Shown piece after piece: positions 14,462 to 39,131 of a stretch of 39,131 bases of DNA. The notes under the pieces are model-generated. The model was not told where the DNA came from. It did no database searches and saw nothing but the letters and a program-made list of their open reading frames with translations. Both the position numbers and the translations under genes were made by a program. Within the stretch, counting starts at the first letter, position 1; each line of letters opens with the position of its first letter. This DNA comes from Thermoleophilia bacterium (lineage in GTDB: Bacteria > Actinomycetota > Thermoleophilia > BMS3ABIN01). The DNA is taken from contig JACWAM010000068.1 in assembly GCA_014874265.1 (NCBI GenBank), positions 1-39,131 of the forward strand. Reading direction: 5' to 3'.

Positions 14462-14512
14462 TCTTCATCGAACAAGCATCTTAACCCAGAATGATCCGGG
14501 ACCCTGCCGTTG

Positions 14513-15973
14513 CTAGCCTTTTTTCAATCTGCGGAAATAGCTGATGTCATCTTTTGACACAATGCGGAATATTAGCAATATTGCCGGATAGCCGGCAACG
14601 CCGGCAGCGGTAATAAGATAAATGGGCAGGCTTTCCATCAACATCATTACGGCCAGAACGGCCCCAGCCGCCAGCGCCGGAAAGACAAACACTTCGAACA
14701 GCCGCACGCGCCGCAAATAATATACGGCAAATCCATAAAAGAATAAAAAGCTGAAAATCTCCGAGAGCAGCGTTGTTACCGCAGCGCCCATGGCGCCGTA
14801 ACGGGGGATTAATAACAGGTTAAAACCCACGTTCACCGCCAGAGACAGGAGCGACCATTTCGCCACCTTGCCCTGGACATTCATAGCCACGAACATGTTG
14901 CCAAACAACGAGCAGCCAACCATCAGCGGCACCGCGAATCCCAGAACTTTCAGCACGTTTACCGCCGGATGATAAACAGGCGGGAGAACCAGCGCCACCG
15001 CGGGACCCGAGAACGCCATCATGAAGATAGCCACTCCCAGACCGGTAATCCAAACATATTTCATCGCCTTCTCAAAAAGGATGAAAAGGCTGTCTCTTGA
15101 TTTTTGATACACCATCGACATCAGCGGCAAAAGCGACTGCACAGCCAGCCAGCCGAACATAGTGATTACTTCGAATAATTTATAAGCCGCGGCATACCAG
15201 CCTACCTCGGCCGATACCCGCATTGCCCCCAGCAGCACGACATCGATCTTGTAATATGCCAGGCTGATGAATTGCCAGTAAAGCATGGGAAACGATTCTT
15301 TGACCAGATTACGGAAGATGCCGCGGTCAAACTTCCAAGAGCTGGGGATGCGCGGCAGCCGACTGTACCACAGACTGGAATAACCAAGCCGGACAACGCT
15401 TGCCCCCAGGTAAACTTCCGTCATCTGAACGACGCCGCCCCCCCGATAGACAATGGCAATGCCGGCAATGGTGAGCGCAACGGAAAAAACCACGTCCGCC
15501 AGGGCGCTTAGGTCCATGCGCTCAAAAGCCTGAAACGCCGACTCGTAAACAGTTGACATCGAAGTAGGAATTATCGACAGCGTCGCGATAAAAAGGGGAA
15601 TGGCTAACTCGCGTGAGAAGCCGCCTAGGAGGATAATTGCTCCCACCGCTGCCGTCACCAGCAAGGTAGTGACAAGCTTCAGCAGGAGCGCCGCAATGAG
15701 AAAAGAATTAGCGCGCTCGCGCCGGCGGCTGACATCACGGATGAGTATATTTGCCGTGCCGAAATCGGCGGCCATACCCGCCAGCATGATAATCACCAAA
15801 ATCAGCGAGTAGCGGCCAAAGCCGGCAGCCAGCAGCCGGCGGGCGAGCACCAGATTCAGCGCCAGGCCCAAAACTCTGCTGACCACTTGATAGGCAAACA
15901 AAAAGGAGATATTGCGGCCGATCCGGCGGATCGGATCGGTTGACGCGCTCAGACCCCCGGTGGACGCGCTCAA
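14513..15973 (-). CDS. Wzx-type polysaccharide flippase (MOP superfamily)
   Basis: polytopic; RNISFLFAYQVVSRVLGLALNLVLARRLLAAGFGRYSLILVIIMLAGMAADFGTANILIRDVSR. Confidence 0.88.
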   Translation of the reverse strand: MSASTGGLSASTDPIRRIGRNISFLFAYQVVSRVLGLALNLVLARRLLAAGFGRYSLILVIIMLAGMAADFGTANILIRDVSRRRERANSFLIAALLLKLVTTLLVTAAVGAIILLGGFSRELAIPLFIATLSIIPTSMSTVYESAFQAFERMDLSALADVVFSVALTIAGIAIVYRGGGVVQMTEVYLGASVVRLGYSSLWYSRLPRIPSSWKFDRGIFRNLVKESFPMLYWQFISLAYYKIDVVLLGAMRVSAEVGWYAAAYKLFEVITMFGWLAVQSLLPLMSMVYQKSRDSLFILFEKAMKYVWITGLGVAIFMMAFSGPAVALVLPPVYHPAVNVLKVLGFAVPLMVGCSLFGNMFVAMNVQGKVAKWSLLSLAVNVGFNLLLIPRYGAMGAAVTTLLSEIFSFLFFYGFAVYYLRRVRLFEVFVFPALAAGAVLAVMMLMESLPIYLITAAGVAGYPAILLIFRIVSKDDISYFRRLKKG

Positions 15974-17532
15974 TCGTCACGCCTTTCATCGCCCTGCCCG
16001 CCCGTCAGCAACTGCTTGTTGCGGATAATGATGGCTTCGATCATCCCCAGCATCAATGCAATTACCGGCACAGTCTGATACTCATAAAACTTGGGGTTAA
16101 CATAATCAGCAACGGCGAGGGTAACCAGCGCCAGCATCATTCCCATCAGGGCAGCCTGTAAAAAGGGGTCCCGAATCTTACTCCAGTTAAACGAGCCGCG
16201 CAGCAGTACGGCCGCCAGCGCCGCGACGAAGGCGGCGAGACCGATCAGTCCGAAATATATCCAGATCCAGGTATAGGCGTCATGATCATACCATCGCAGA
16301 TCATTCGGCATACCAACAACGGGGGGGCGGTACAGCTCATCCAGGGAAATGCCAAAAGCTGGCGAGCTGCGAATGGCGGCCCAGGCAAAATTATCCTCGA
16401 TGTCGCGCTCGGATAAACTCTGGGATGATTCGGTTTGAGAAGAAAAAGTTGACCCGTACCGGGTAATAATGGCGCCGACATACTTCTGCAGGGTCCCCGT
16501 CGCGGTGGCAAACAGCAGCACGGCAACGGTAACAACAACAAATAATGAGATCAGTTTCAGCCTGACATTTTTACGGTTCAGCAACATTACCAGGAAGGCC
16601 AGCACCACGATCGGAACAAAGTAGCTGCGGTTAAATTCAAGCAGCACGCCCGCAAGTGTCACCAGCGTCAGCGGCGCATAGAAAGCCAGCCGTTTCCGGT
16701 TCCACGGCCGGAGCAGCAGATTCATCAGGCCGACCCAGAAACAGGCAAGGTCCAGCGCGCCTCCGGGGGGCCGCACTCTTTGCACCAGGAGCGCCACCGT
16801 CGGCGAATCCGATTGCAGCGATTGTGGCGCGACGAGCGGACCAAAAATGGAATTCTGGGGAAACAAAGCCGTAAAAATAACTGCCGTCGATACAATTGCC
16901 CCCAGGGCCAGAAAGGCGCGCACCATCCACCGCTGCCGCTTAACCGAATTGAAGAATATCAGCGCCGGGATAAACAACAGGTAGAGGGATAACGACCTGT
17001 CGAAAAAGAACGCAGTGAATATCGAGTGGGATGTAAACCGTTCCTGGATGGGGAAAACAAGCGATTTCGCGACCACGATGGAGGCAAACGCGATCAGGGC
17101 GATGGCAACCGGAGAGGCGGTAATTGTTTGGGTAACGGTTGGTTCTCGCCGGCTCAGCAGCGCCCGTCCCACGAGCAAGATTAAAACCATTTCATACGCC
17201 AGATAAACCGTATTGTCACTTGACCATTTTCCGAAATATTCAGGCACGAAAAGCGTGGATGTGAGGATCAGAAAAAATACCATCCCCCAATCCGGCCGCC
17301 TGGCAACCAGGATAAACAAAGCTATGGCCAGCAGCAGTTCCATCGGGATCTTGAAGCTCAGGCTCGGTGAGATCAACCCGATGAGGGCCGTGGTTACCAG
17401 CACAAAAATGGACACCGCCAACAACATGCCCCGGGACAGACGCTTGCCAAAGGCGGCCTCCGATCCCGCGGAGCCGCTCCAACCGATCGATGAAAAATCA
17501 AATGAATCTCTAATCTGGGAAGCCAATCTCAC
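15970..17532 (-). CDS. O-antigen ligase/polymerase-like membrane protein
   Basis: polytopic; LEFNRSYFVPIVVLAFLVMLL; SPAFGISLDELYRPP; YDHDAYTWIWIYFGLIGLAAF; 4-bp overlap with the flippase gene. Confidence 0.75.
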   Translation of the reverse strand: MRLASQIRDSFDFSSIGWSGSAGSEAAFGKRLSRGMLLAVSIFVLVTTALIGLISPSLSFKIPMELLLAIALFILVARRPDWGMVFFLILTSTLFVPEYFGKWSSDNTVYLAYEMVLILLVGRALLSRREPTVTQTITASPVAIALIAFASIVVAKSLVFPIQERFTSHSIFTAFFFDRSLSLYLLFIPALIFFNSVKRQRWMVRAFLALGAIVSTAVIFTALFPQNSIFGPLVAPQSLQSDSPTVALLVQRVRPPGGALDLACFWVGLMNLLLRPWNRKRLAFYAPLTLVTLAGVLLEFNRSYFVPIVVLAFLVMLLNRKNVRLKLISLFVVVTVAVLLFATATGTLQKYVGAIITRYGSTFSSQTESSQSLSERDIEDNFAWAAIRSSPAFGISLDELYRPPVVGMPNDLRWYDHDAYTWIWIYFGLIGLAAFVAALAAVLLRGSFNWSKIRDPFLQAALMGMMLALVTLAVADYVNPKFYEYQTVPVIALMLGMIEAIIIRNKQLLTGGQGDERRDD

Positions 17533-21825: not shown

Positions 21826-22758
21826 TCAACCATCCGCATTTTGCCGTTTGACCGCATATACGGTCATCGCCGACGACCACTCGCGGCCATCGACCATTTT
21901 TTTATAAAGCGAAAGCCCCTTGACCGCCAGGCGGTCAGCCAGACTCGGCGCATGGACAACATCGTTCTTCCTCCCCAGGCGCCGCTCCTTGAAGTACTGC
22001 CAGTTCATTTGACAGTAATACAGAGGCGTTTCATAGACTACTTCGGAGACGCAAAAGCCGCTTAAGGCCAGCAGCCGCGCCAGGCTGGTCCGGTTAAAGC
22101 TATACAGGTGCCGCGGCACTTCATAAATGAACCAGTCCGGACCCAGGAGCCTGGCTTCCGGAGCCGCAGCGTTCTGGGTGTAAATGACCAGCAGCGACTG
22201 CTCGCCGCTGATCCTGCTGATCTCCTCGATTGTCCGCCGCGGGCTCTGCACATGTTCAAGAACGCCCCAGAGAGTGACCACGTCAAAGGAGCCATCCTCG
22301 TAGCCGGCGTCCTCCAGTTGGCCGGCAAAGGCGTTGATGCCAAGTTCGTCCCGGGCCAGATCCACCATCCTCTCGTTATAATCGACGCCGGCGACATCCC
22401 AGCCGTTCTCCTTCATGTAGTAAAGAAAGGACCCGTCGCCAAAGCCGATATCCAGCAGCTTGCCAGGCTGCTGGTAAATTTCAATCCTGTTCTTGCGCGG
22501 TCCCAGGAGCCGGCCCAGCTCATCCATGCTCCGGTCCTTGAGCCCCGCGGCCTTGCCGTAGAGGTCGTAATCTTCCTGGGGATAATAGCTTCCCATTTCC
22601 TCAAATGAGGGGCGGGGACTGACAAAGATTAGGCCACAATCCTGACATTTTAACAACTGAAATGAGCCGGGAGTGCCAAACAGCCGGTCGGAACCGGTAA
22701 ACAGCAGCTCGTGGTAGCCGCCGCCGCAAAGATCGCACTTGCCTGCCGTCACATCCAT
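21826..22758 (-). CDS. class I SAM methyltransferase with N-terminal zinc ribbon (start revised from 22821 to 22758)
   Basis: MDVTAGKCDLCGG...LLKCQDCGLIFVSPRP; KLLDIGFGDGSFLYYMKENGWDVAGVDYN; VVTLWGVLEHV. Confidence 0.87.
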   Translation of the reverse strand: MDVTAGKCDLCGGGYHELLFTGSDRLFGTPGSFQLLKCQDCGLIFVSPRPSFEEMGSYYPQEDYDLYGKAAGLKDRSMDELGRLLGPRKNRIEIYQQPGKLLDIGFGDGSFLYYMKENGWDVAGVDYNERMVDLARDELGINAFAGQLEDAGYEDGSFDVVTLWGVLEHVQSPRRTIEEISRISGEQSLLVIYTQNAAAPEARLLGPDWFIYEVPRHLYSFNRTSLARLLALSGFCVSEVVYETPLYYCQMNWQYFKERRLGRKNDVVHAPSLADRLAVKGLSLYKKMVDGREWSSAMTVYAVKRQNADG

Positions 22759-23711
22759 CCCTTCCCTGGCGCAGGCAGCCACACATTCTTGGTATAAGCC
22801 CAGTAGTTGCAGTCGCGGCAAAGATCGATCTCGTTCCAGCGGCCGTGCTTGTGCAGGCTCCGGTAACGCTTGAGCTCCGGTCCCTTCCAGATTTCCTCGA
22901 TGCTCTGCTGCCTGACATCACCGATTACGCCGAGATGATCGAAGTCAACGTTGCAAAAACTGACCTTGCCGTCCCAATTAATGGAAAAAGAGTTCCACAG
23001 GAAAGAGCACGGATAGCGCCGGGACGGCATTTGCATCAGGCTGCCGACCTCGGGACGGAGCCCGCCCCAGTTGATGGCCGGAATCAGGAGGACGTCAACC
23101 TCGTGCTCTCCCCACTGCTCCTTAAAAAGACTGATCTCATCCTTGGTGTCCTGCATCACGATCAGCTGCACCTTCACCCGCGGCCAGACATAGCCGCGCT
23201 CCCGGCGCAGCCGGAGGAAGCGCTCGATATTCTCGATCACCTGGTCATACTTGGTGGAGCCGCGCACCTTCTTGTAAGTCTCCGCCGTGGCAGCATTAAC
23301 ACTAAACAACAAAATGTCAAGCTTGGAATCGAGAATCCGGTTGGCCTTCTCCTCATCCAGGAGCAGGGCGTTGGTGTCCATGTTAAGCAGCGTGCTGGGG
23401 GCGACGGCCTTGACGTGGTCAATCAGGTCAAAGATATGGGGGTTCTTCAGCGGCTCGCCGTCCTTGTGCAGCCTCACCTCCGCCGGCGCGTGCCGTGAAA
23501 GCTCCTGCGCCAGCTTGTCAAACAGATCCATATCGATATCACCCACCGGCCGGGTAAGATCCTTGCGCGGGCACATGCGGCACCGCAAATTGCACCGGTT
23601 AGTTGGCTCGATGTTGATGCGGGATGGAAAATCCGCCGTTATCTCCGCCGGCCGCAACACTTTTTCCTTGACCAGATTTTTTGTTTTGGATTTGAGTGAC
23701 ATTATTAACAA
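22749..23711 (-). CDS. radical SAM/SPASM protein
   Basis: INIEPTNRCNLRCRMCPRKDL; KDGEPLKNPH; CSFLWNSFSINWDGKVSFCN...LCRDCNYW. Confidence 0.9.
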   Translation of the reverse strand: MLIMSLKSKTKNLVKEKVLRPAEITADFPSRINIEPTNRCNLRCRMCPRKDLTRPVGDIDMDLFDKLAQELSRHAPAEVRLHKDGEPLKNPHIFDLIDHVKAVAPSTLLNMDTNALLLDEEKANRILDSKLDILLFSVNAATAETYKKVRGSTKYDQVIENIERFLRLRRERGYVWPRVKVQLIVMQDTKDEISLFKEQWGEHEVDVLLIPAINWGGLRPEVGSLMQMPSRRYPCSFLWNSFSINWDGKVSFCNVDFDHLGVIGDVRQQSIEEIWKGPELKRYRSLHKHGRWNEIDLCRDCNYWAYTKNVWLPAPGKGWM

Positions 23712-23787: not shown

Positions 23788-25323
23788 TTATGCGATTGGC
23801 TCAAAAGTCTGCTTCTTGAAAGTCTTAAACAGCATCCACTCAAACGGCATGTCGTAATAGTGGTGCCGGGCCCGCGCCTGCGCCAGCGAATGCAACACGT
23901 GATAGGGAATCTTTTTCAGACCTCCGTTATTCAGCTTCATCTGCATGTTTCTGTCCGGGTACGCAAACGGATAGTAAAAGCCGTTGATCTTCTCGATCTT
24001 CTTCCGCTCTTCCGGAGTTACCCAGACGCTCTCTTTGAGCGTCGCCGGGTTGTAATCCGCCCATTCCTCCAGCGACAACGGCTCCGGCATTCCGTATTTT
24101 ACCGACAGATCGTAAAGGGGCGTTCCCGGATAGGGCGTAAAGACAAAAATCTTCGTTCTGATTTCCGGGGAGATCTTCTTGACTTTTTCAATGAAATTTA
24201 GCAGATCCTCGGTGGTCTCTTCCGGCTGCGTCCCCGGTGCATGGGGAAAACCGGTGATAAACGTGAAGGTGCCGCCGATGCCATAGTCACGGCAGGTCTG
24301 GGCGCTCTTTAAATGGTCCTCGGCGGTAGCGCCCTTTGAAATCAGCTGCAGCACCGGCTCGGTGGCGGACTCGGCGCCAACGATAATGCGTTTGCAGCCG
24401 CTCTCGCGGATCAGCTTCAGCACCTCCGGCTTGTACCGGTGGAATGTGTCGGGGCGCGCCGAGGCCACCCAGCGGATCTTCAGGCCGGAATTGATGAACC
24501 CCTCACAGATCGCCTTCACCCGGTTCTGGTTGGCAAAAAAGTTGGCATCGCTAAAATTTACCTGGTCCAGGTTGTATGACTTGACGATATGTGATACTTC
24601 CCGCACGACCCGGTCGGCGTCCAGACCGGTCCAGTGCCGCTGGTAGAGCTGCGCGTCGGCGCAATAACCGCACTTTCCCGGGCAGCCCTGGCTGGAGTGA
24701 AATTCGATCGTGCGGATACTTTCGTGGTTCTGCGTCTGGTTGAGCATGATGGCGCGGTTGACATCAAGCAAATGATAAGGTGCCGGCATGACGTCATTGA
24801 TATTCACCAGGGGCCGGACCGGATTGCTGACGATGCCCTCCGCGGTCCAGTAAACCGAGCCAAGGACGCCCTCGGGGGCCTTGCCGGCTGCCAGCGTCTC
24901 CACAATCTCGGGGAAGGTAACATCACCCTGCCCGACGCAGACAATGTCGCAGGCCTCGGACTGGCAGCATTGCTCTGGAAACAGGGACGGATGATAGCCA
25001 CCCCAGACAATCGGGATTTCGGGGTTAAGCGCCTTCACCTTGCGGGCCATCTCGATGCCGCGCTTGATCTGGTAGCCGGTGATGGAACTGATGCCGACGC
25101 AGACAGCGTCATCCAGATTGGTCAGCACTTCCTGCTCGTAATTTGGAGTGACCCGCTCGTCAACCAGGTGCAGCTCGTACTTGCCCTCCAGCGGCGCCGC
25201 GATCACGGCAATGGCAAGCCCCAGCTCGATCCGGTAATGCCCGAACGCCGGCGTCGGGAAAAACAGCACGACTTTTTTCTTCCCCCGGCGGTCATAATTG
25301 GTCTTTCTGCTCGTAGCGGTCAT
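23788..25323 (-). CDS. B12-binding-domain radical SAM protein (paralog A)
   Basis: VVLFFPTPAFGHYRIELGLAIAVIAAPL; VGISSITGYQI; IVWGGYHPSLFPEQ; SSQGCPGKCGYCADAQLYQRHW; VGAESATEPVLQLISKG; FTPYPGTPLYDL. Confidence 0.92.
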   Translation of the reverse strand: MTATSRKTNYDRRGKKKVVLFFPTPAFGHYRIELGLAIAVIAAPLEGKYELHLVDERVTPNYEQEVLTNLDDAVCVGISSITGYQIKRGIEMARKVKALNPEIPIVWGGYHPSLFPEQCCQSEACDIVCVGQGDVTFPEIVETLAAGKAPEGVLGSVYWTAEGIVSNPVRPLVNINDVMPAPYHLLDVNRAIMLNQTQNHESIRTIEFHSSQGCPGKCGYCADAQLYQRHWTGLDADRVVREVSHIVKSYNLDQVNFSDANFFANQNRVKAICEGFINSGLKIRWVASARPDTFHRYKPEVLKLIRESGCKRIIVGAESATEPVLQLISKGATAEDHLKSAQTCRDYGIGGTFTFITGFPHAPGTQPEETTEDLLNFIEKVKKISPEIRTKIFVFTPYPGTPLYDLSVKYGMPEPLSLEEWADYNPATLKESVWVTPEERKKIEKINGFYYPFAYPDRNMQMKLNNGGLKKIPYHVLHSLAQARARHHYYDMPFEWMLFKTFKKQTFEPIA

Positions 25324-25365
25324 GTGAAATTATTCCTTTGTGGCAATATACAACTCCCCCAAAAC

Positions 25366-25457
25366 TGTCATTCTGAGGAGCGCGAAGCTTGGGCGCAAGA
25401 TCTGTCAGTCTCCGGAAAGCAGATCCCCTGGCACTCGTCGAGTGCCTCAGGATGACA
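25366..25457. repeat. 92-bp palindromic repeat (MITE/REP-like)
   Basis: ends TGTCATTCTGAGG / CCTCAGGATGACA (12 of 13 inverted match); internal GATCTG/CAGATC; perfect hairpin GGCACTC-GTC-GAGTGCC at 25430-25446. Confidence 0.8.
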
Positions 25458-25534
25458 ACCCGCGGAGAAACTTAAAAACCCAGGTAACTCTCCCATTATA
25501 GTAACAGCGGCAGGGTTACTGCCAGCATTCCCTT

Positions 25535-26998
25535 TCAAGTCAGTTTCAGCCGGCGGGCCAGGTGCCATTCCCACGGAAGCGAATAAAATCCCGCCGCCAC
25601 CCGGGCGCGGCAAACACCGGTAAACAGCCAGTACAGCGGCTCAATGACCTTGCTGGCCGATCGCTTCTCCCGCGCCAGCTGGTTGGGATAGGCCCAGGGG
25701 ATGTAAAAATCAGCGATCTGCTTCACCTTGAACTTCTGCTTGCGGCTAATCCAGGGAGTCTCCACCGAACGGGCGTCGTACACCGACCAGCCGGCGAGAG
25801 AGTCCGGCATTTTAAAACCGCTGGCTTCGCCCAGCCGGGTCAGCGCCGTACCCGGATAAGGGGTGAAAAACAGCGTCGTGGTGCGGGTATCGGCATAGAT
25901 CTCCTTGAGTTGCTTCATAAAATCGAGAGTGGTCTGCATCTGCTCCCAGGTCTCGGTCGGAAATCCGAGGATAAAGACGTAAGAAGGCTGGATCTCGTGC
26001 CGGCGGCAGCGGCGGGTGGCCTCCAGCACATCGCTGGCCTCGTTTCCCTTGTTGATCAACTTCAGAACCGTATCATCACCTGATTCAGCGCCCATCATGA
26101 ACTTGGTGCAACCGCTGTCCCGGATCAGTTTCAGGTCATCATCACTAAAAGAAAGCACCTGGGACGGCCGGATGGTCGCGAACCACTCAAACCGGCGCGG
26201 CGCCTCCAGAAAGCCGCGGCAGATTTCCCGCACCCGGCGCTTGGAGGCAAAAAAGTTGTTGTCGTCGAAATAAATTCTCTCGAGGTCGTACCGCTCCACC
26301 AGGCCGTTTACTTCGGAAACCACCCGTTCCGCCGCCAGCCCTTTCCATTTGCGCCCGTAGGCTTCGGGATTGGAACAGAACCCGCATGCGTGCGGGCAGC
26401 CGAAGCTGGAAACGTAACTCAAGCCGCGGCGCCGGTCGCCATGGAAGCGGCGGTTGAACTCCATGTAGCGCTCGACATCCACCAGCCCGTACGGCATCGC
26501 CGGAAACTCGTTGATGTCGGCAACCCGGCGGTCGGGATTGTGGACTACCGCTCCATCCCTGATATAGGAGACGCCGGCGATATCCGCCAGCTCCCGCTTG
26601 CCCTCCAGATAGTCCGCCAGCTCCATCATTGTCTGCTCGCCCTGACCGCGGACAACGATGTCGATGCCGGGATCCCGTATGGTTTGCTCTGCAAGCAGGG
26701 ATGGATGGTAACCGCCCCAGACCACCGGCTTGTCCGGAAATCTTTCCTTTGCCGCTCTTGACACGTCCAGCCCATCGGCGATTTGATATCCAGTCATGGA
26801 GCTGACACCGAAGAGGTCGGCTCCATCCATCGCCGCGACCGCCTTGTCCCGGTAGTCAGGCTCGACGCGGGCGTCGATGACCTTCACCTCCACCCCGCGC
26901 TCCTGAAGCGGCGCCGCCAGCGCCAGCAAGCTTAGCGGCGGGCTGGCCTTGTGTTTGTTGTCCTTGTTTGTCAGTGGAAAGAATAAGACAAATTTCAT
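25535..26998 (-). CDS. B12-binding-domain radical SAM protein (paralog B)
   Basis: FGVSSMTGYQIADGL; VVWGGYHPSLLAEQ; SFGCPHACGFCSNPEAYGRKW; GAESGDDTVLKLINKG; FTPYPGTALTRL. Confidence 0.92.
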   Translation of the reverse strand: MKFVLFFPLTNKDNKHKASPPLSLLALAAPLQERGVEVKVIDARVEPDYRDKAVAAMDGADLFGVSSMTGYQIADGLDVSRAAKERFPDKPVVWGGYHPSLLAEQTIRDPGIDIVVRGQGEQTMMELADYLEGKRELADIAGVSYIRDGAVVHNPDRRVADINEFPAMPYGLVDVERYMEFNRRFHGDRRRGLSYVSSFGCPHACGFCSNPEAYGRKWKGLAAERVVSEVNGLVERYDLERIYFDDNNFFASKRRVREICRGFLEAPRRFEWFATIRPSQVLSFSDDDLKLIRDSGCTKFMMGAESGDDTVLKLINKGNEASDVLEATRRCRRHEIQPSYVFILGFPTETWEQMQTTLDFMKQLKEIYADTRTTTLFFTPYPGTALTRLGEASGFKMPDSLAGWSVYDARSVETPWISRKQKFKVKQIADFYIPWAYPNQLAREKRSASKVIEPLYWLFTGVCRARVAAGFYSLPWEWHLARRLKLT

Positions 26999-27927
26999 GG
27001 CTGCTTTCCCTTGTCTTTCCGCGCATAGACCTCAATCATTATACCTTGACCGGCTCGGGGCAGCAGTCGCGCCGCCGGTTTCACAACCAGCTTGCGAACA
27101 GCCCGGTCCAGGACCGACGAGGGGAAAGTCCGGCCCCGCCGGATTTCAATGCTCCGTTCCGTCACGTAAGCGGCGCCGTAATGAAGCAGATCGCCAACAT
27201 GAAAACCGTTGTTCTTAAGCAGCACCGCCAGGCTGCCGGGCCCGAAATGCCAGACATGGCGCGGCGCCTCCACGTTGAACCAGGCGCCGCCAAAGAAGCG
27301 CGCTTCCCAGGACTCAATGTTATGGGTCTGCACCACCAGCAGGCCGCCGGGAGCCAGGCTTTCCCAAGCGCGCCGCAGGCATGCATTCGGATCGTCAACG
27401 TCTTCGATGACGCCAAACAGCGTGACGCAAGCATACGGTCCGCCCCAATCCACCTCATGCTCGGCGCCCGCGACTACGTCCAGACCGAGGCGGTCGCGCG
27501 CGTAAGCAGCCACATCCTCTTTGAGTTCGATGCCGCGCACCTCCCAGCCACACTGCTGCATCCCCAGCATGAAATAACCGTCACCGCAACCAACGTCCAG
27601 CAGTCGTCCGGGCCGGCGGCGGTGGTTGATCTGGGCGATCTGCGGCGCAAAACGCGCGATGCGCTCCTCGGGCCGGGCCTGCCTCCGCCCCAGAGCCCAA
27701 TCGTAAAGAGGATATTCATCAGCGAAGGCGAGGCGCCGCTCGTCAAACGGCGGCCGCGGGGACATCCTCAAAGCGCCGCAATCAGGGCAGCGAACGATCT
27801 GAAACTGACCGGAAGAACCGAGCAGACTGTCCCCCACCGTCCATGCGGGCAGCTGACCCGCCGATCCGCAGACGGCGCAGTCGACCGGGGAGCTCAATGC
27901 CCCGCCCGCCACTTTTTCAGACGCCAC
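26995..27927 (-). CDS. class I SAM methyltransferase with N-terminal zinc ribbon
   Basis: CAVCGSAG...IVRCPDCGALRMSPRP; LLDVGCGDGYFMLGMQQCGWEVRGIEL; stop overlaps the start of paralog B by 4 bp. Confidence 0.87.
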   Translation of the reverse strand: MASEKVAGGALSSPVDCAVCGSAGQLPAWTVGDSLLGSSGQFQIVRCPDCGALRMSPRPPFDERRLAFADEYPLYDWALGRRQARPEERIARFAPQIAQINHRRRPGRLLDVGCGDGYFMLGMQQCGWEVRGIELKEDVAAYARDRLGLDVVAGAEHEVDWGGPYACVTLFGVIEDVDDPNACLRRAWESLAPGGLLVVQTHNIESWEARFFGGAWFNVEAPRHVWHFGPGSLAVLLKNNGFHVGDLLHYGAAYVTERSIEIRRGRTFPSSVLDRAVRKLVVKPAARLLPRAGQGIMIEVYARKDKGKQP

Positions 27928-29348
27928 TCCAGCGGAGCCCGGAAGTCACGCTTGCGCACCCGCCAGGCAGCCAGCTGATGCATCCCTTTATAGGCGAGCG
28001 CCTTGGGGCCGCCGGCGTTCATTTTTTCCATCAGCTCCGGACCAGGCGAAGCGAATGGCATGTAAAAATCAATAATCATGTCAACTTTTTCCTTGTAAAC
28101 CGGATCCACCCAGGGCGTATGCAGCTCGGTAAGGTCAAAGTCCTCCCAGGCCTCGGTGTAGGGAGGTGGCGCAAAACCCAGCCGCACCGCTTCGTCAAAC
28201 ATCGGCGCCCCCGGGTAGGGAGCAAAGAAAAAGCCATGCACCTCAAAATTCTCGTTAATGGCCTTGATCCCCTCGATCATCTTCATCGTCGCGTCGATGT
28301 CCTTCTGCGGCTCGCCGGGAAAGCCAAACATCGTCGTAAACCGCGCCGTGATCCCCAGCCGGTTGCAAATGCGCGCCACGTGGAACGTATCCTCCACGGT
28401 CGTCTGCTTGCCGATATACTCCAGCGCTTCCTGCGATCCTGATTCGGCGCCCAGAAGCAGCCGCCGGCAACCGGCGTCGCGAACCAGCTGCTGCAAGTCC
28501 CCGGGAAATTCGATGAACTGCTTGGTGCGTACGTCCGCGGCCCATTTCAGGTTCAGCTTCCGCTCGATCAGCCCCTCGCAGATGGCGCGGACCCGCTTCT
28601 TGCTGACAAAGAAGTTCGTGTCGGCAAAATCGATGGCGTTGACGCCGTACTTCTTGACCAGATTCTCAAGGTCGTCCACCACACGCTCGGCGGAGAACGG
28701 CTTCCAGCCGCGGCCATACATGGAAGTCTCGGCGCAAAAACCGCAGCCAAACGGGCACCCCTGCGAAGAAAAGTACTTCATCGTGCGGGTGCCGACATCA
28801 TTGACCATGTACTTTTCTGTATCAATGATATCGTATGGAGTCGGCGGAAACTGGTCCAGATCCACCAGCGCGGGATAGGCGCCGATTACCGGTTTGCCAT
28901 CCTGCTTGTAGCAAAGCCCGGGAATTCCCTCCAGCGAGCCGTCTTCAGTCCCGGCCAGCCGCCGGGCCAGCTCGGTGGCGGCGATCTGTCCCTGGCCGCG
29001 GATAATGATATCTACATACGGCTCCGCCAGCGTCTGCTCCGGTAGCATGCTGGCATGATAGCCGCCCCAGATAACGGGAATATCCGGGTAAGACTGCTTG
29101 ACCGCGCGCGAGATGGCGACGGCGTCGCGGATCTGCAGGCCGGTCATCACCGAGAGGCCGACGTAGAGCGCCCCCCGGGCAGCTTCAAGAATGTCAGGAA
29201 TATGGGGATGGATGACCCGGCCGTCGACGATTTTAATGTCAAAACCGGCTTCCATCAATGGCGCAGCCACCGCCATCAGCGGCAGCGGCGCCCAGACATT
29301 GCTCTCGCGCATAAGGCGCGGAAAAACCAGAGTTACTTTTTCACTCAC
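27894..29348 (-). CDS. B12-binding-domain radical SAM protein (paralog C, GTG start)
   Basis: VGLSVMTGLQIRDAV; VIWGGYHASMLPEQ; SSQGCPFGCGFCAETSMYGRGW; LGAESGSQEALEYIGKQT; FAPYPGAPMFDE. Confidence 0.92.
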   Translation of the reverse strand: MSEKVTLVFPRLMRESNVWAPLPLMAVAAPLMEAGFDIKIVDGRVIHPHIPDILEAARGALYVGLSVMTGLQIRDAVAISRAVKQSYPDIPVIWGGYHASMLPEQTLAEPYVDIIIRGQGQIAATELARRLAGTEDGSLEGIPGLCYKQDGKPVIGAYPALVDLDQFPPTPYDIIDTEKYMVNDVGTRTMKYFSSQGCPFGCGFCAETSMYGRGWKPFSAERVVDDLENLVKKYGVNAIDFADTNFFVSKKRVRAICEGLIERKLNLKWAADVRTKQFIEFPGDLQQLVRDAGCRRLLLGAESGSQEALEYIGKQTTVEDTFHVARICNRLGITARFTTMFGFPGEPQKDIDATMKMIEGIKAINENFEVHGFFFAPYPGAPMFDEAVRLGFAPPPYTEAWEDFDLTELHTPWVDPVYKEKVDMIIDFYMPFASPGPELMEKMNAGGPKALAYKGMHQLAAWRVRKRDFRAPLEWRLKKWRAGH

Positions 29349-29385
29349 GGGACCCCCGGGAAGCGTGAAACATGGAACAATCCAA

Positions 29386-29394
29386 ATTATAGCA
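29386..29394 (-). promoter_or_regulatory. extended -10 promoter candidate (TGCTATAAT) for the paralog C operon
   Basis: minus-strand TTGCTATAATTTGG about 38 nt upstream of the GTG start; no convincing -35. Confidence 0.4.
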
Positions 29395-29478
29395 AGTTCA
29401 GCCGCGCCCTAGCTGCCGACCTGGCTTCTTTATTGCTTGATAGCCGACGAGATTGCGGGAAGAAAGATCTCCTTAATC

Positions 29479-29529
29479 CAATAATAAAAAAGGCTTGCGT
29501 TTGCGTGATCAATTTAAGCGGTCAAGCCT
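29479..29529 (-). terminator. intrinsic-terminator-like hairpin on the minus strand (AGGCTTG-N25-CAAGCCT + T-tract)
   Basis: minus strand reads AGGCTTGACCGCTTAAATTGATCACGCAAACGCAAGCCTTTTTTATTATT; 7-bp stem with a long loop. Confidence 0.3.
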
Positions 29530-29620
29530 GCCTCAAAGCCTGCCGAAAAACCGGATCGAGCCCTGATATTGGTTGATTAAGTTCGAGTAAATCAATAAAC
29601 TTTGTTTAGTCGGCTTTAAT

Positions 29621-31312
29621 ATGGGATCTTCTCAAACCTTGGCTAAAAAAGACAATTCCTCTGTTCGCGGAAGCTTGCCCGGGTTCCTTCTGAGTCCGGG
29701 AGCAGTCCTGTTCATAATCATCGCATTTGCTGCCGCGATCCGCATCTGGGCGGCGCATATTCATCCCTTGATCATGAATGACGAGACGGTTTACGCCCGG
29801 ATGGCCCAAAATCTGCGAGCGGGTCACCTTCCCTGGGACATAACCGGCAATGCCGATACTGTTTGGACTCCCCTGCTGCCAATCACCATGGCAGGGCTGC
29901 GGCCGTTGGTAAACAACATGGTTACGGCCGGCTATATTACCGATATCTTTTTTGGCAGCCTGCTGCTGATTCCCACATATTTGCTCGGCGTCGAACTCGT
30001 GAACAGGCGTGTCGGCCTTCTGGCCGCGGCGCTAATGGGTATCTCCCCGCTCTTTGTTAATTTCTCTTCCATGATTTACAGCGAAAGCGAATATATTTGT
30101 TTCTTCCTGTTTGGACTCCTTTTTGGCTGGCGGCTGTTGACCCGGAAGACGCTTTCGACCGGCATCCTTACCGGCGTTGCTCTCGGTATTGCCTATATCT
30201 CAATTGCGACAGCCGTCATTTATCTGGTCATTTTACTCGTGCTGGGCCTGCTGGTAGCGCATTTTAGCCATTCCTGGAAACAGCTATTAAAGCCGTTATT
30301 GCTGATGGTTGCTGTTTTTCTAGTTATTGGCGCGCCCTATGTTTTCTTCCTGCACACCCAGCTTCATCAATGGACTTTCACCGGCAAGGATGCTTCTGGC
30401 AAATCAGCGGCTCTCGACCGCGGCTGGGATTCCACCGCCGGCTGGAACGACGGCGCCATGGCTCTGACGGCAAATGGCACGGAAACTCAACTTGATCAAG
30501 TAAATCAAAGCTCCAACAATGAAAGTACGCTGGGCGCTTTTTTTCATCATCCTTTGCAGCGGATTAAGACTTTTTACACAGACCTGGGCCAGGCAGAGAG
30601 AAAGATTCCCGATGTACTGTTCATAGGTTTATTGCCGCTTTTCGGCCTGGGCCTGTTCGCTAACTCATGGGATATCTCACGCGCCAAACGGATCGGATAT
30701 ACATTCCTGATGATCACACCCGCAATTCCCATGCTAGCCGTCTGGTTTGACGGCAACACCCGCTTTTTTATGCCCTTCCTGCCGCTGATAATGATCTGGG
30801 TTGCCAACGGCTGGCGGCAACTGGAGGTATGGGGACAAAAAACAGTAACTCAGTTAACAAAGAACAGCGGCCACAGCCGGCTTTACATAAATCTGATACC
30901 CTGGGTTGTTGGGGTGCTTGTTATTCTTCCCATTTTGCCTGTGGACCGCGGTACCGTCCAGGCGGAATCTTATCCGGTAGGAATGGAAGAAGCGGGAAAA
31001 GCAATCCATGGCAAACTTGACCAGAAGAAGCTTATGTGTCTTGAGACTATTCCTGCCTATTACGCGGGAGACGACTGGGTGGAATTTCCGGACGGCACCT
31101 ACAAGCAAATAACGGCATATGCCAGGGCCCACGGGGTGAATTACATGGTCATTGACGCGGGTGAGATGAAAGAATGGCGGCCGCAGCTGGAAATCCTGCT
31201 GCAGGCACAATCAAAACATCCAGAATGGTCGCTTGTTACAATTAAAGACAAGCGCGGCGGAGATGATGAAACCTATGTTTTTCAGCTGCACAGGAATTTG
31301 AGCCAGGTTTGA
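29621..31312 (+). CDS. PMT/ArnT-like membrane glycosyltransferase
   Basis: IRIWAAHIHPLIMNDETVYARMAQNLRAGHLPWDITG; TPLLPITMAGLRPL; multiple TM helices; FDGNTRFFMPFLPLIMIWVANGW. Confidence 0.78.
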   Translation: MGSSQTLAKKDNSSVRGSLPGFLLSPGAVLFIIIAFAAAIRIWAAHIHPLIMNDETVYARMAQNLRAGHLPWDITGNADTVWTPLLPITMAGLRPLVNNMVTAGYITDIFFGSLLLIPTYLLGVELVNRRVGLLAAALMGISPLFVNFSSMIYSESEYICFFLFGLLFGWRLLTRKTLSTGILTGVALGIAYISIATAVIYLVILLVLGLLVAHFSHSWKQLLKPLLLMVAVFLVIGAPYVFFLHTQLHQWTFTGKDASGKSAALDRGWDSTAGWNDGAMALTANGTETQLDQVNQSSNNESTLGAFFHHPLQRIKTFYTDLGQAERKIPDVLFIGLLPLFGLGLFANSWDISRAKRIGYTFLMITPAIPMLAVWFDGNTRFFMPFLPLIMIWVANGWRQLEVWGQKTVTQLTKNSGHSRLYINLIPWVVGVLVILPILPVDRGTVQAESYPVGMEEAGKAIHGKLDQKKLMCLETIPAYYAGDDWVEFPDGTYKQITAYARAHGVNYMVIDAGEMKEWRPQLEILLQAQSKHPEWSLVTIKDKRGGDDETYVFQLHRNLSQV

Positions 31313-31315
31313 TTT

Positions 31316-32800
31316 CTAGTCATCTTTTATTCGTTTCAGGCTCTCGACAACCCACCATTCAGCCGGCATCTGCCAGTATTTTTTTTGGCACCGATATGAA
31401 CTAACTTTTTCCATCATGTCAACATATCGTCTGCGGAGCCGCCTGCCTTTCGAATGTGCGAGCACTGAAGCTGACGGATATCCGAAGGTAAGGTAAAAAT
31501 CTCTCTGCTTCATCCGGTTGGCAAATTTCTGGCTCACCCAGGGAAGGTTGCATTCGAAACTGTTGAATTGTGACCATTCTTCAAACGTGGCCGGCTGCTG
31601 AAAGCCCATATCACATGCCTTTTCATAAAGGGCGTGGCCGGGCATGGGGGCGAAGAAGAACATCGCCGATCTGTACTCCCCGGTTATCTCGGATATCTGC
31701 TGGATCATATCCCAGGTTTCTTCAACTTCCTCAGCAGTTTCACCGGGAAAGCCGACAATGAAGAAAAATGAAACATGAAAACCATGCCTCCTGGCAATCC
31801 GGGCGGCTTCAATCGTCTCCTCCCGCGATATATCTTTCTGCATCACATTCAGCATATTATCAGAGCCGCTTTCAGCACCAACCGAAAGATCTGACAATCC
31901 GCTTGATTTAAATGTCTGGATGGATTCCTCGGAGAATTTGACTATTTGATTCGAACGGGCATAAGCCGTCCATTTAAGATCCAGGCCCCGGTCCGTACTC
32001 AACTGGGCTATTTCTCGAGATCTGTGTTCTTTGACAAAAAAATTTGCGTCCACGTAGGCAACCCCATCGAGATGAAAATGACTCTTGAGAAACTCGACGT
32101 CTGACATCACTCGGTCAGGACTGTAGGAGAGCCAACGCCTGCCGTAAACCAGGGGCTCGGCGCAAAACTGGCATCGATAGGGACATCCTTGACTTGAAAC
32201 GTAATTAATCGCGCGCTTGCCTGCGTTTGGCAAACCGGAAATATAGCGCTCCGGATGATCCAGTTTCTCATAGGGGAGGCGTGGAAAATTATTGATGTCT
32301 TCCATTTTACGGGATGGATTGGAAATGACTTCACCCTGCCGCTGGATGGTAGTGCCGGCAACATCCGCAAAATCTTCACCCTGGCTGAGCAGGCCAGCTA
32401 TTTCCAGGAGCGTCCTTTCACCCTGCCCCCTGACTACGGCGTCAACATACTTATTCTTGCATGTTTGTTCCGGCAGGATCGATGGATGATAACCGCCCCA
32501 TATTATCGGCAGTTCATGGCCCGCCAGACGTACAGCTTTTGCGGCCTCCAGACCATGAAATATTTGCGGCCCGCTCATGCTGCTGATGCCAAGCAAAAGC
32601 GCGTCGAAACAGTTATCCACGACATTTTTCACCGCATCGGCGTCGGCATCGCCATTAATCATGGTGACATCGTATCCTTCCGCCAGTAAGGGAGCCGCAA
32701 GCGCCATTATCGGCAAAGGCACCAGTGCTGAAGACCAAGGCAACCTTTGCTTGAAGTACGGCTTGGGATAAAACAGGACAACTTTGTTTTTTACGTCCAT
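31316..32800 (-). CDS. B12-binding-domain radical SAM protein (paralog D)
   Basis: LGISSMSGPQIFHGL; IIWGGYHPSILPEQ; SSQGCPYRCQFCAEPLVYGRRW; VGAESGSDNMLNVMQKD; FAPMPGHALYEK. Confidence 0.92.
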   Translation of the reverse strand: MDVKNKVVLFYPKPYFKQRLPWSSALVPLPIMALAAPLLAEGYDVTMINGDADADAVKNVVDNCFDALLLGISSMSGPQIFHGLEAAKAVRLAGHELPIIWGGYHPSILPEQTCKNKYVDAVVRGQGERTLLEIAGLLSQGEDFADVAGTTIQRQGEVISNPSRKMEDINNFPRLPYEKLDHPERYISGLPNAGKRAINYVSSQGCPYRCQFCAEPLVYGRRWLSYSPDRVMSDVEFLKSHFHLDGVAYVDANFFVKEHRSREIAQLSTDRGLDLKWTAYARSNQIVKFSEESIQTFKSSGLSDLSVGAESGSDNMLNVMQKDISREETIEAARIARRHGFHVSFFFIVGFPGETAEEVEETWDMIQQISEITGEYRSAMFFFAPMPGHALYEKACDMGFQQPATFEEWSQFNSFECNLPWVSQKFANRMKQRDFYLTFGYPSASVLAHSKGRRLRRRYVDMMEKVSSYRCQKKYWQMPAEWWVVESLKRIKDD

Positions 32801-35080: not shown

Positions 35081-36124
35081 TCATTTCTCGCCGACCAAAA
35101 CTACTTCTTCCCCCAAACCCGGGCGTATCTTCAGGAGCAGCCATTCAAACATCTGTATCCCAAATGCTCCCAAACGGTCAAGCAAACCCGGATTGCGCAA
35201 GACATAATATCCTGTTCTTTCAATCGCTTTGTTGGCGAGGTACAGGGGCGCGGCATGACGCACGCTGGTCATGACCTGCAGCTTATTAAAACCTGCTATC
35301 TCCGCCATTCGCTTCAACGAACCGGGTGAAAATACAAACAGGTGCCGGGGTGAATCCATAAACATTACATCTGCGTGCTTGAAAACCCGGCTTCCCAAAC
35401 TTTCAATGTTTGGCGTGATCATCACGAATTTTCCGCCCGGTTCCAGAATGCGATAAAACTCCCTCAGCAAGGAAACAGGGTCATAAACATGCTCGATGAC
35501 ATGATTGCTGATGATGGCTCCGAAATAGCCATCCGGATATTTGATCTCTTCGGGAGTGCCGTGCTTGACCTCCAGGCCTTTGGACCGGGCATGCTCTACG
35601 GCGGAAGGATCCCGATCAGCGCCTTCCACCTGCCAGCCAAGCTCCTTCATGATTTTTAACTGTTGCCCGGCGCCGCATCCGACCTCGAGCAGCCGCTTCC
35701 CCGGGCATGCGGGCAGCAGCATCACGCTCAGGTCACTGGAAGCCTTCCATCCCGGATGCAACAGGATGAGCTTGCTCATCAGCCTTTGCGGGGCGCTTGT
35801 GCCATCGTTCCCGTAACCGTACCTTGTTGATAAATATCCTTTTTTAAGATATTCATAAATTCTCTTGCTTTCATTTCCCGGATTTTCTCCACCTTCATGA
35901 GTGAAGTAATTCTCATAGGCCCGGGAAATATCTTCCTCGATCGGCATGGGATCGAGCCAGACCAGCCCGCAGCTCTTGTTAACACACTTTTTTGAGCTCC
36001 ATGTGCCCGGCGTTTTAAAAAAGAGGTCTGTTAAATCCTGGAATAAAACCCTGCCCTCCCCGCCACAGGCGGGACATTTATGAACAGGCTCGGTCCTGAT
36101 TATTTCCTTGGCATTATCTGTCAT
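35081..36124 (-). CDS. class I SAM methyltransferase with N-terminal zinc ribbon
   Basis: HKCPACGGEG...SKKCVNKSCGLVWLDPMP; RLLEVGCGAGQQLKIMKELGWQVEGAD; ISNHVIEHVYDPVSLLREFYRILEPGG. Confidence 0.9.
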   Translation of the reverse strand: MTDNAKEIIRTEPVHKCPACGGEGRVLFQDLTDLFFKTPGTWSSKKCVNKSCGLVWLDPMPIEEDISRAYENYFTHEGGENPGNESKRIYEYLKKGYLSTRYGYGNDGTSAPQRLMSKLILLHPGWKASSDLSVMLLPACPGKRLLEVGCGAGQQLKIMKELGWQVEGADRDPSAVEHARSKGLEVKHGTPEEIKYPDGYFGAIISNHVIEHVYDPVSLLREFYRILEPGGKFVMITPNIESLGSRVFKHADVMFMDSPRHLFVFSPGSLKRMAEIAGFNKLQVMTSVRHAAPLYLANKAIERTGYYVLRNPGLLDRLGAFGIQMFEWLLLKIRPGLGEEVVLVGEK

Positions 36125-36190: not shown

Positions 36191-37723
36191 TTAATAACCG
36201 CGTAAAGCGTCAATCTGGGAACTTACCCGCCGCATCCGCTTCAGGCGTCCCAGATGCCGGAAGAGCTGCCATTCCAGCGGCAGGCGATAGAAATTAAAAG
36301 CGCACCGTAAAACCGCAGCCCAATGCAAGGGATATAATAGCGGCATCCACTTAATCTGTCGCATGCGTTTGCGCATCGTCTGGTTGGGATACGCGAAGGG
36401 AAAGTAAAAATTATTGCAGCTGCTGACGAAATTCTTGTCATCCTCCGTAATCCAGGAAGTGCTGACAGAGGTCGATTCCCAGTTGGCCCACTCACTGGTT
36501 TTTACCGGCATCCGTAACCGGAGCCGCTCAGCGATCTCAAAAAGTTGCGTTCCCGGATAGGGTGTAACATAAAAAGTGACCGTGACGACATCGGGATGCT
36601 CCCGCCGCAGTTTCTTTATCAGCATCAGGGTTTGCCAGATCTCATCTTTCGACTCCGGCAAGGCCTTGGGGAATCCCACCATGAAAGCATAGACGCCGTG
36701 AATACCGGCATTTTTCAACAGGCGGTTGGAGGCGATAGCCTGGTCCGGTGAAGTCCTTTTGTCGATCAGTTTCAGTACTTCATCGGACCCAGATTCTATG
36801 CCGATCTCAATCGTTCGGCAACCGGCCTTTTTGGCCAGACTTAACGTTTCCGGCTTGACCTTAAATAGCTGGCTGGCCCGTGCTGTCACCGTCCATGTAA
36901 TGCGAATATCCCGGTCGAGCAGCAGCCTGCTGATCTCCTCCACCCGCCTGGGGCTCGCAAAAAAGTTGGCGTCAGCGAAACTGACGTGCTCCAGCCGGTA
37001 CATTTTGTCGAGCTGTTCAATATCGTCAACGACGGTGCTGGCGGCCCGGGCGGTCCACTTGCCAAACACCTTCGGCTCAACACAAAACGCGCATTTAAAG
37101 GGACATCCCTGGCTGGAAAAGTACTGGACCGCGCGCCTGCCCCCATTCAGTCTAAAAAAACGCTCGATGTCAAGAAGTTCATAAGGAGCCCGGGGGAAAT
37201 TATTGATATCCGCCACAGGCCGGCTGGGATTGCTAACGATCTCGCCGGCGCCATCCCTGTACGTGGCGCCCGCCACCCCATCAAAGCCCCGATTCTCTTC
37301 CAGACGCTGAACCAGCTCACCGAACGTGACCTCACCCTGTCCGCGGACAACCGCGTCAACGTAGGGCTCTGAAGCCGCCTGCTCCGGCAGGAGGGAGGGG
37401 TGGTACCCGCCCCATATCACGGGAACCCGGGGATGGCGCTTTTTCACCAGGCGAGACAGATGAATCGCCCTTTTTAGTTGATGACCGGTGATAGTGCTGA
37501 CGCCAACGCACAGCGCTCCCTCTGCCGCCTCTATCAGCTCCTTGTCAACGTCGGGACTGAGGCGCTCGTCGATCAGGACGATCCGGTAACCCTTAGCGTG
37601 AAGAGGTGCCGCCACTGCCAGGATGGACAAAGGCAGCTCCAGAGCGTAGCCCTGCCGCTCCAGCGGGCTCGGGAAGACAAGCACAATCTTGGGTTTACCT
37701 GAATTATTGGAATCGCTTGACAA
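36191..37723 (-). CDS. B12-binding-domain radical SAM protein (paralog E)
   Basis: VGVSTITGHQLKRAI; VIWGGYHPSLLPEQ; SSQGCPFKCAFCVEPKVFGKW; IGIESGSDEVLKLIDKRT; VTPYPGTQLFEI. Confidence 0.92.
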   Translation of the reverse strand: MSSDSNNSGKPKIVLVFPSPLERQGYALELPLSILAVAAPLHAKGYRIVLIDERLSPDVDKELIEAAEGALCVGVSTITGHQLKRAIHLSRLVKKRHPRVPVIWGGYHPSLLPEQAASEPYVDAVVRGQGEVTFGELVQRLEENRGFDGVAGATYRDGAGEIVSNPSRPVADINNFPRAPYELLDIERFFRLNGGRRAVQYFSSQGCPFKCAFCVEPKVFGKWTARAASTVVDDIEQLDKMYRLEHVSFADANFFASPRRVEEISRLLLDRDIRITWTVTARASQLFKVKPETLSLAKKAGCRTIEIGIESGSDEVLKLIDKRTSPDQAIASNRLLKNAGIHGVYAFMVGFPKALPESKDEIWQTLMLIKKLRREHPDVVTVTFYVTPYPGTQLFEIAERLRLRMPVKTSEWANWESTSVSTSWITEDDKNFVSSCNNFYFPFAYPNQTMRKRMRQIKWMPLLYPLHWAAVLRCAFNFYRLPLEWQLFRHLGRLKRMRRVSSQIDALRGY

Positions 37724-37828: not shown

Positions 37829-38842
37829 TCATCCAGTCCGTTTAGCCAGCACGCGTTTGGCGCCATTTCTCATCTGCTCAAAAACGGGCAGCTCAGCCAA
37901 TACGGAAAGTTTCGGGTGCTTCATCAACCAAAGACCCCGGCATCTGGCGCACAGCTCCAGTTCCTCGTACCGTTTTTCCTTGAGCAGTCGACGGTACCTT
38001 CTCATCTCGGCGCCGTTCCAGATTTCCATAATCGATTCCTTGTTTAAATCGCCCAGGATATACCTGGCGTCCAGGTCGGCGCTGCAGCCAACGACCCTGC
38101 CATCCCAAACGATGCTGATCGCCGACCAGAAAAAAATGCATGGATAATAGCCCATGTCGGATTTCTTCGGGTCAAAACCGGTATCTTCCCGCCAGTAATG
38201 GGGGTTTCCCATAAAGAATTCATCTACCGAAAGCCCTTCAAAGCGGGCGATAAAACCGGGGTCTATTCTCTGGCCGGGATGTTGCTGTGTTTTCAGGATC
38301 TGAATAGTTACCTCGGGCCGGCGCCGCCCTCTTGCCGCCCTCAGACTTAAAAAATTGGAGACGTTTTCAACAATCGTGTCAAAAAGGGCTTCCTTGCCCT
38401 GCTTTTCGTAGTCTTCCCGGAAATCACTCTCCATCCTGACCCACATCTTGTCCAGCCCTGCGTCCAGCAGCTGTTTTCCCTTCTCTTCATCAAGCAGAGA
38501 CCCGTTGGTCACCAGCCAGGCTTCCAGGCCTTTGGAAACGACATACTCCACCATCTCCGGCAGACTTTCATGCAGGATGGGCTCGCCATCAAGAAACAGG
38601 GTGACTTCACGAACGCCGGCGGCGGGTGCCTGGTCGATAATCTTGTGGAAGAGATCCATGTCCATAAAGCCTTTCGGGCGCGATCCATCCTTGCTGCCGT
38701 CCGGTTCTTCGAGGTTGCTGACATTGGTCGGCTCCACCTTGATGAAAAGCGGTCCATTAGGGGTCTCTTCATTGAGGCGAAACCAGTGATAATGACGTCT
38801 GTAGCTCGCCCATTTCTTTGCTATTTCTTGTGAATTTGCCAT
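37829..38842 (-). CDS. radical SAM/SPASM-fold protein lacking the canonical CX3CX2C motif (candidate pseudoenzyme)
   Basis: FIKVEPTNVSNLEEPDGSKDGSRPKGFMDMDLF aligns with paralog INIEPTNRCNLRCRMCPRKDLTRPVGDIDMDLF; retains LDGEPILHE and SPASM-like CIFFWSAISIVWDGRVVGCS...LCARCRGLW. Confidence 0.85.
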   Translation of the reverse strand: MANSQEIAKKWASYRRHYHWFRLNEETPNGPLFIKVEPTNVSNLEEPDGSKDGSRPKGFMDMDLFHKIIDQAPAAGVREVTLFLDGEPILHESLPEMVEYVVSKGLEAWLVTNGSLLDEEKGKQLLDAGLDKMWVRMESDFREDYEKQGKEALFDTIVENVSNFLSLRAARGRRRPEVTIQILKTQQHPGQRIDPGFIARFEGLSVDEFFMGNPHYWREDTGFDPKKSDMGYYPCIFFWSAISIVWDGRVVGCSADLDARYILGDLNKESIMEIWNGAEMRRYRRLLKEKRYEELELCARCRGLWLMKHPKLSVLAELPVFEQMRNGAKRVLAKRTG

Positions 38843-38950: not shown

Positions 38951-38994
38951 GAAGCGGCCAGAGCGCCTGATATTTCCTATCGTCAGGCCGCTTC
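38951..38994. terminator. strong inverted repeat GAAGCGGCC ... GGCCGCTTC (terminator-like) downstream of the truncated minus-strand CDS
   Basis: perfect 9-bp arms at 38951-38959 and 38986-38994. Confidence 0.45.
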
Positions 38995-39030
38995 ACGTCA
39001 CCGCCACTGACAGCGTCTGGCTTTTCCACC

Positions 39031-39131
39031 CTAGCCTCTGATGCGCCTGATGACCTTGCCGAGTCTTCGCTTCGCCACTTGTTTAGGCGTGGGAGACAGC
39101 TCGTTGTGCGCTTCCTTGAGCATCTGCCGGA
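39031..39131 (-). CDS. C-terminal fragment of an uncharacterised protein truncated by the window edge
   Basis: minus-strand open frame ...RQMLKEAHNELSPTPKQVAKRRLGKVIRRIRG followed by TAG. Confidence 0.45.
   Translation of the reverse strand, partial: RQMLKEAHNELSPTPKQVAKRRLGKVIRRIRG

Follow-up and report, generated by a model that had tools for sequence, protein, structure and literature searches.

A probable non-catalytic twitch-type radical SAM paralogue in a surface-polysaccharide locus of a Thermoleophilia bacterium

The stretch of DNA analyzed here (the window; 39,131 nucleotides) is the entire contig C53 of a 2.0-Mb, 126-contig, 97%-complete genome of a Thermoleophilia bacterium. Its genes belong to a surface-polysaccharide locus encoding Wzx/Wzy-type proteins, glycosyltransferases, dTDP-sugar genes, methyltransferases, and a carbamoyltransferase, together with five B12-binding radical SAM proteins (within 23788-32800 and at 36191-37723) and three twitch/SPASM proteins (Table 1). 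In radical SAM enzymes, a CX3CX2C motif binds the [4Fe-4S] cluster that holds SAM, and this cysteine triad is required for SAM cleavage. The listed start codon of one ORF, 7613-8551 on the reverse strand, lies inside the motif; because the frame extends upstream (7613-8620) and there reads TYRCNSRCLMC, its true start is further upstream, the triad is present, and the triad-less reading of this ORF was rejected as a start-codon artefact.

Table 1. Genes and protein features at and around the pseudo-radical-SAM/twitch gene (window coordinates)
Feature	Position	Strand	Basis
Pseudo-radical-SAM/twitch protein, 337 aa	37829..38842	-	Intact ORF; PF13186 and sub-threshold PF04055
SNLEEPDG replacing CX3CX2C, residues 42-49 (C42S, C46E, C49G)	38696..38719	-	Alignment with homologues
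GEP motif, residues 86-88, kept	38579..38587	-	Alignment
SAM-strand SxDG...R.G changed, residues 136-151 (S136R, D138E, G139S, R149G, G151E)	38390..38437	-	Invariant in 13 homologues
Twitch domain, residues 213-305; C235, C253, C298, C301 kept	37928..38206	-	Pfam, alignment, BtrN spacing
B12-binding radical SAM protein, triad SQGCPFKCAFC intact, next gene downstream	36191..37723	-	
Methyltransferase (Methyltransf_23)	35081..36124	-	Pfam
Twitch paralogue with triad, 35% identical to the 37829-38842 protein	22749..23711	-	
Aldo-keto reductase 3' end, cut by contig end	39031..39131	-	Overlap with contig C58

The gene at 37829-38842 has an ATG start and an unbroken frame of 337 codons, and its product is homologous to radical SAM/twitch enzymes. 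PF13186 clears its Pfam threshold (54.8 bits; cut-off 21.5), while PF04055 falls narrowly below (29.2 bits; cut-off 29.5), with a match that begins at profile position 22, i.e., past the cluster motif. Where CX3CX2C would stand, the protein has S42, E46, and G49: residues 41-50 read VSNLEEPDGS, the string given in an earlier note made from the DNA alone, which placed it at 38687-38728, two codons too many on each side of its actual position (38693-38722). Opposite SNLEEPDG, CN(L)(K/Q)CxxC is found in all of the eight full-length orthologues, which are 44-56% identical to the protein; a paralogue in the same genome (53%) is one of them. These orthologues are the informative comparison, rather than the 22749-23711 protein that the note had used as a close one, given its identity of only 35%. 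Since the aligned stretch is gap-free and equally long in the orthologues (VEPTNACNLKCYTCSLDGT vs VEPTNVSNLEEPDGSKDGS), the triad was lost by substitution and not by frameshift or deletion; several motif codons differ at two or three positions, and the change at residue 46 (TGC/TGT to GAA) involves all three bases. None of the other five frames of the region contains a Cys triad at the motif, which, with the equal length, rules out a frameshift or double frameshift. An origin of the new loop by tandem duplication of DGS(K/R) was also ruled out, the copies being too dissimilar in DNA. Both the absence of all three cluster cysteines and the exclusion of a frameshift, as claimed before, are thereby confirmed.

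The loss was found in one genome. CX3CX2C is present in 80 of the 83 homologous ORFs collected, and the three triad-less ORFs are the 37829-38842 gene and two fragments truncated by the start of their contigs, a pattern beyond chance. No second complete triad-less copy was detected in the other 18 of the 19 family genomes sampled, nor in 398 genomes of the phylum; a scan of named genomes with the 37829-38842 protein as single query returned no relative, and an alignment-based scan returned 20 loci with no complete triad-less homologue among them. Because the triad-less gene occurs in one genome only among these 19 family and 398 phylum genomes, conservation of the loss across species is unsupported. 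The homologue search proposed in the earlier note thus shows that the Cys loss is not conserved in related loci, this copy alone being degenerate.

The damage to the SAM site extends beyond the triad. Across 13 triad-bearing homologues, 86 residues are identical, and 17 of these are altered in the 37829-38842 protein: 9 of 16 within the SAM motif segments, compared to 8 of 70 elsewhere (P = 3e-4; P = 0.007 without the three Cys), values that serve as guides because the choice of segments, based on what is generally known of the radical SAM fold, was made with the alignment already in view. The nine are the triad, L89, S136, D138, G139, R149, and G151, the last five located on or after the fourth strand. 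Thus, among canonical SAM contacts, the SxDG strand and the following Arg/Gly are gone, whereas the GEP motif is intact, as had been noted, and the TN pair of the old SAM pocket is likewise kept. The best explanation of this pattern is that the protein, as predicted from its residues, cannot make the 5'-deoxyadenosyl radical.

The other end of the protein has been preserved. Its only four cysteines lie at residues 235, 253, 298, and 301, with a spacing (17/44/2) identical to that of C169/C187/C232/C235 in BtrN, and 28 of the 31 invariant residues of the domain are kept. SPASM domains have seven Cys and two clusters and twitch domains have one cluster, that of BtrN being fully ligated by four Cys (PMC6231123, PMC9012708). 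Since four cysteines with the exact BtrN spacing are present, and four is the total for the whole protein, the C-terminal domain is, by its ligand pattern, a one-cluster twitch and not a full SPASM; the earlier note was right that these cysteines are kept, but not in assigning them to a SPASM domain. An auxiliary [4Fe-4S] cluster would be expected to be bound by them. The AlphaFold model, built from a 40-sequence alignment and superseding a poor model from 9 sequences (pLDDT 69), has a pLDDT of 89.1 and a pTM of 0.88, and its best structural matches in the PDB are BtrN, followed by DesII and BlsE. Together with the nesting of the protein in the family tree, these matches are in agreement with a partial TIM barrel. 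BtrN (2-deoxy-scyllo-inosamine dehydrogenase; PDB 4m7s/4m7t) is also the closest solved protein by sequence and shares both barrel and twitch, although at ~17% identity it differs in having CX3CX2C and cleaving SAM, whereas the 37829-38842 protein lacks the triad and the SxDG/Arg residues. BtrN, DesII, and BlsE act on sugars or cyclitols; therefore, the fold matches fit a polysaccharide locus.

The 37829-38842 copy was compared to its relatives by a tree and a purpose-written branch codon model. In the tree, with a caveat for long-branch effects, the three remaining copies from its genus form its sister group, and the branch of the 37829-38842 copy measures 1.29 changes per site compared to ~0.2-0.3 for the sisters, i.e., protein evolution ~4x faster. 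Because synonymous sites are saturated, all dN/dS values are rough. With branch length free, dN/dS is 0.077 against a background of 0.063 and dN/dS = 1 is rejected (2dlnL 46); the reading of this model as "no relaxation" was abandoned once the branch was tied to the synonymous time of the sisters. Under that synonymous clock, dN/dS is 0.162 versus 0.062, above background (2dlnL 45) and far below 1 (2dlnL 175), with the rise concentrated in the barrel (0.195 versus 0.051; 2dlnL 39) rather than the twitch domain (0.107 versus 0.068; 2dlnL 4.0). Outside the motif, any terminal neutral phase can have lasted at most ~0.1 substitutions per codon; because this tail is short and the motif block is too diverged to have arisen within it by point mutation (C46E alone takes three bases), the loss of the triad is old. 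By these codon comparisons, the gene is not a pseudogene: it is kept by purifying selection, with constraint released mainly where SAM was once handled. An open frame under purifying selection after catalytic loss is the pattern of a functional pseudoenzyme, saturation of synonymous sites being borne in mind, and the earlier proposal of a pseudoenzyme that retains the ligands of one auxiliary cluster is supported. That note had also held that a lone degenerate copy under relaxed selection would speak against its reading, and here the outcome is divided: the copy is the sole one and its constraint has loosened, yet it is not evolving anywhere near neutrally, and most of the loosening is in the barrel.

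An active paralogue probably lies close by, across the contig break. Contig C58 ends in 144 bases (16008-16151) that match 38986-39129 of the window end to end at 96% (138/144), and this overlap falls within the 3' end of the aldo-keto reductase gene upstream of 37829-38842. Gene order on C58 is asparagine-synthase-like, two B12-binding radical SAM genes, a twitch paralogue, membrane glycosyltransferase, a second asparagine-synthase-like gene, aldo-keto reductase, flippase, the active twitch paralogue (14004-15047), and aldo-keto reductase, where the asparagine-synthase-like and membrane genes were named from reading of their translations. The junction fits synteny, because relatives keep the order twitch, asparagine-synthase-like, and the same B12-binding radical SAM gene, or parts of it. 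The pseudoenzyme gene is thus probably located one aldo-keto reductase gene downstream of the active 53%-identical paralogue, an adjacency that is likely and not proven because the overlap is 96% with six mismatches, which may reflect strain variation or a second reductase copy. In relatives, the asparagine-synthase-like amidotransferase gene adjoins the twitch gene or immediately precedes the B12-binding radical SAM gene (L042:15006-17060, reverse strand; L047:3432-5309, reverse; L041:3985-5862, forward); in the window it is absent between the pseudoenzyme and B12-binding radical SAM genes.

These observations suggest a scenario in which the surface-polysaccharide cluster held a BtrN-like gene for a twitch radical SAM enzyme, and this gene was duplicated in tandem. 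One duplicate would then have lost the SAM-binding [4Fe-4S] site along with other SAM-contact residues, while purifying selection would have preserved its barrel fold and its four ligands for a single auxiliary [4Fe-4S] cluster. The product is probably a helper protein and not an enzyme: a non-catalytic, cluster-bearing partner subunit that may hold substrate or relay electrons to a catalytic subunit. That this tandem-duplicate pseudoenzyme is maintained as a partner, most likely of the active paralogue and less likely of the adjacent B12-binding radical SAM enzyme, is given an even chance; cluster binding, partnership, and electron relay can be inferred by analogy with several precedents. BtrN deprived of its three RS cysteines by mutation continues to bind its auxiliary cluster (PMC9012708). 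In the TrnC-TrnD complex, the twitch protein TrnD can do without its RS cluster, and double mutants of its auxiliary Cys are inactive (PMC12093266). Electrons can move between radical SAM molecules, likely via an auxiliary cluster (PMC10470005), and inactive methyltransferase paralogues commonly partner active ones (PMC10908127). A narrower form of the proposal, put forward tentatively and as an unlikely one, is a natural heteromer for sugar biosynthesis in which only one side performs radical SAM chemistry: a catalytic BtrN-like twitch enzyme would be joined by a tandem duplicate that lacks the SAM cluster and contributes nothing but its auxiliary [4Fe-4S] cluster, to accept or relay electrons.

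Alternatively, the protein may have been neofunctionalised, with its barrel now put to a use that involves no Fe-S radical chemistry (binding a sugar, for example, or regulation, or catalysis by a non-radical route); the twitch cluster would then be only structural. The acidic loop EEPDGSKD, which is new sequence and not mere loss, the shifted constraint on a barrel whose dN/dS nevertheless stays below 1, and the sugar-enzyme relatives (BtrN, BlsE, DesII) of a protein encoded in a polysaccharide cluster would all suit this possibility; however, GEP and TN of the old SAM pocket are retained and no positive sign of another active site was seen, and it is regarded as rather unlikely. A decaying duplicate, with function lost and the sequence drifting in a frame not yet broken, is improbable. 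The long branch, a synonymous-clock dN/dS 2.6x background, and the absence of the triad-less form from any other genome are what decay would predict, but dN/dS = 1 is strongly rejected, the neutral tail is short, all twitch ligands are retained, and in simulations only 1.5% of frames were still open after ~100 neutral substitutions.

Still less probable is that the protein serves specifically as electron-transfer or scaffold partner of the adjacent B12-binding radical SAM enzyme (36191-37723), as the earlier note had proposed. The genes are adjacent on the same strand, but in relatives orthologues of the enzyme either neighbor a twitch gene that has the triad, frequently separated from it by an AsnB-like gene, or have no twitch neighbor at all. 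Because relatives pair it with a triad-bearing twitch protein or none, the enzyme in general needs no such protein, and the specific partnership is unsupported. An assembly or sequencing artefact, conceivable for a gene 289 bases from the end of a MAG contig, is very improbable given the lack of any indel, gene-wide changes with a codon-position bias (0.32/0.25/0.54), syntenic neighbors, and multi-base codon replacements in the motif. Separately, in genome G003 (contig C42), which belongs to the same genus, the gene directly upstream of the 36191-37723 orthologue (L128:181-1647, forward strand) encodes a B12-binding radical SAM protein that reads CPYACPYY, its third triad Cys replaced by Tyr, which is a second, independent loss of a triad Cys in this lineage's cluster.

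Set against known systems, the non-catalytic partner proposed here has parallels but no exact counterpart among those compared. Pseudo-radical-SAM/SPASM proteins are already known from Haloarchaea (TIGR04347, an NCBI pseudo-SAM/SPASM name) and show the same kind of loss in a different lineage and context; the 37829-38842 protein scores 51.2 bits against this model (cut-off 525) and is not a member, and because the score is so far below the cut-off, the two losses are independent. The twitch variant is new, so far from a single genome, and no description of a pseudo-radical-SAM twitch protein turned up among the papers searched under the phrases used. TrnD of thuricin CD is a twitch radical SAM protein complexed with a catalytic SPASM paralogue, but unlike the 37829-38842 protein it retains its RS cluster, cleaves SAM, and works on peptides (PMC12093266). 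Dph2, one half of the Dph1-Dph2 heterodimer, is the product of duplication of a radical enzyme subunit, and its Fe-S cluster is termed regulatory and not catalytic; it differs in belonging to a non-canonical radical SAM family of unrelated fold, with the cluster kept in the enzyme domain (PMC11048331).

If true, the heteromer would be a bacterial, canonical-fold analogue of Dph1-Dph2. The finding also bears on annotation: with PF13186 positive and PF04055 borderline, homology alone would label the protein an active enzyme. The role of the auxiliary cluster in twitch/SPASM enzymes is still debated, and a natural protein that carries only that cluster and sits next to an active paralogue would allow the two roles to be told apart with no need for mutagenesis, and could reveal auxiliary clusters working across subunits.
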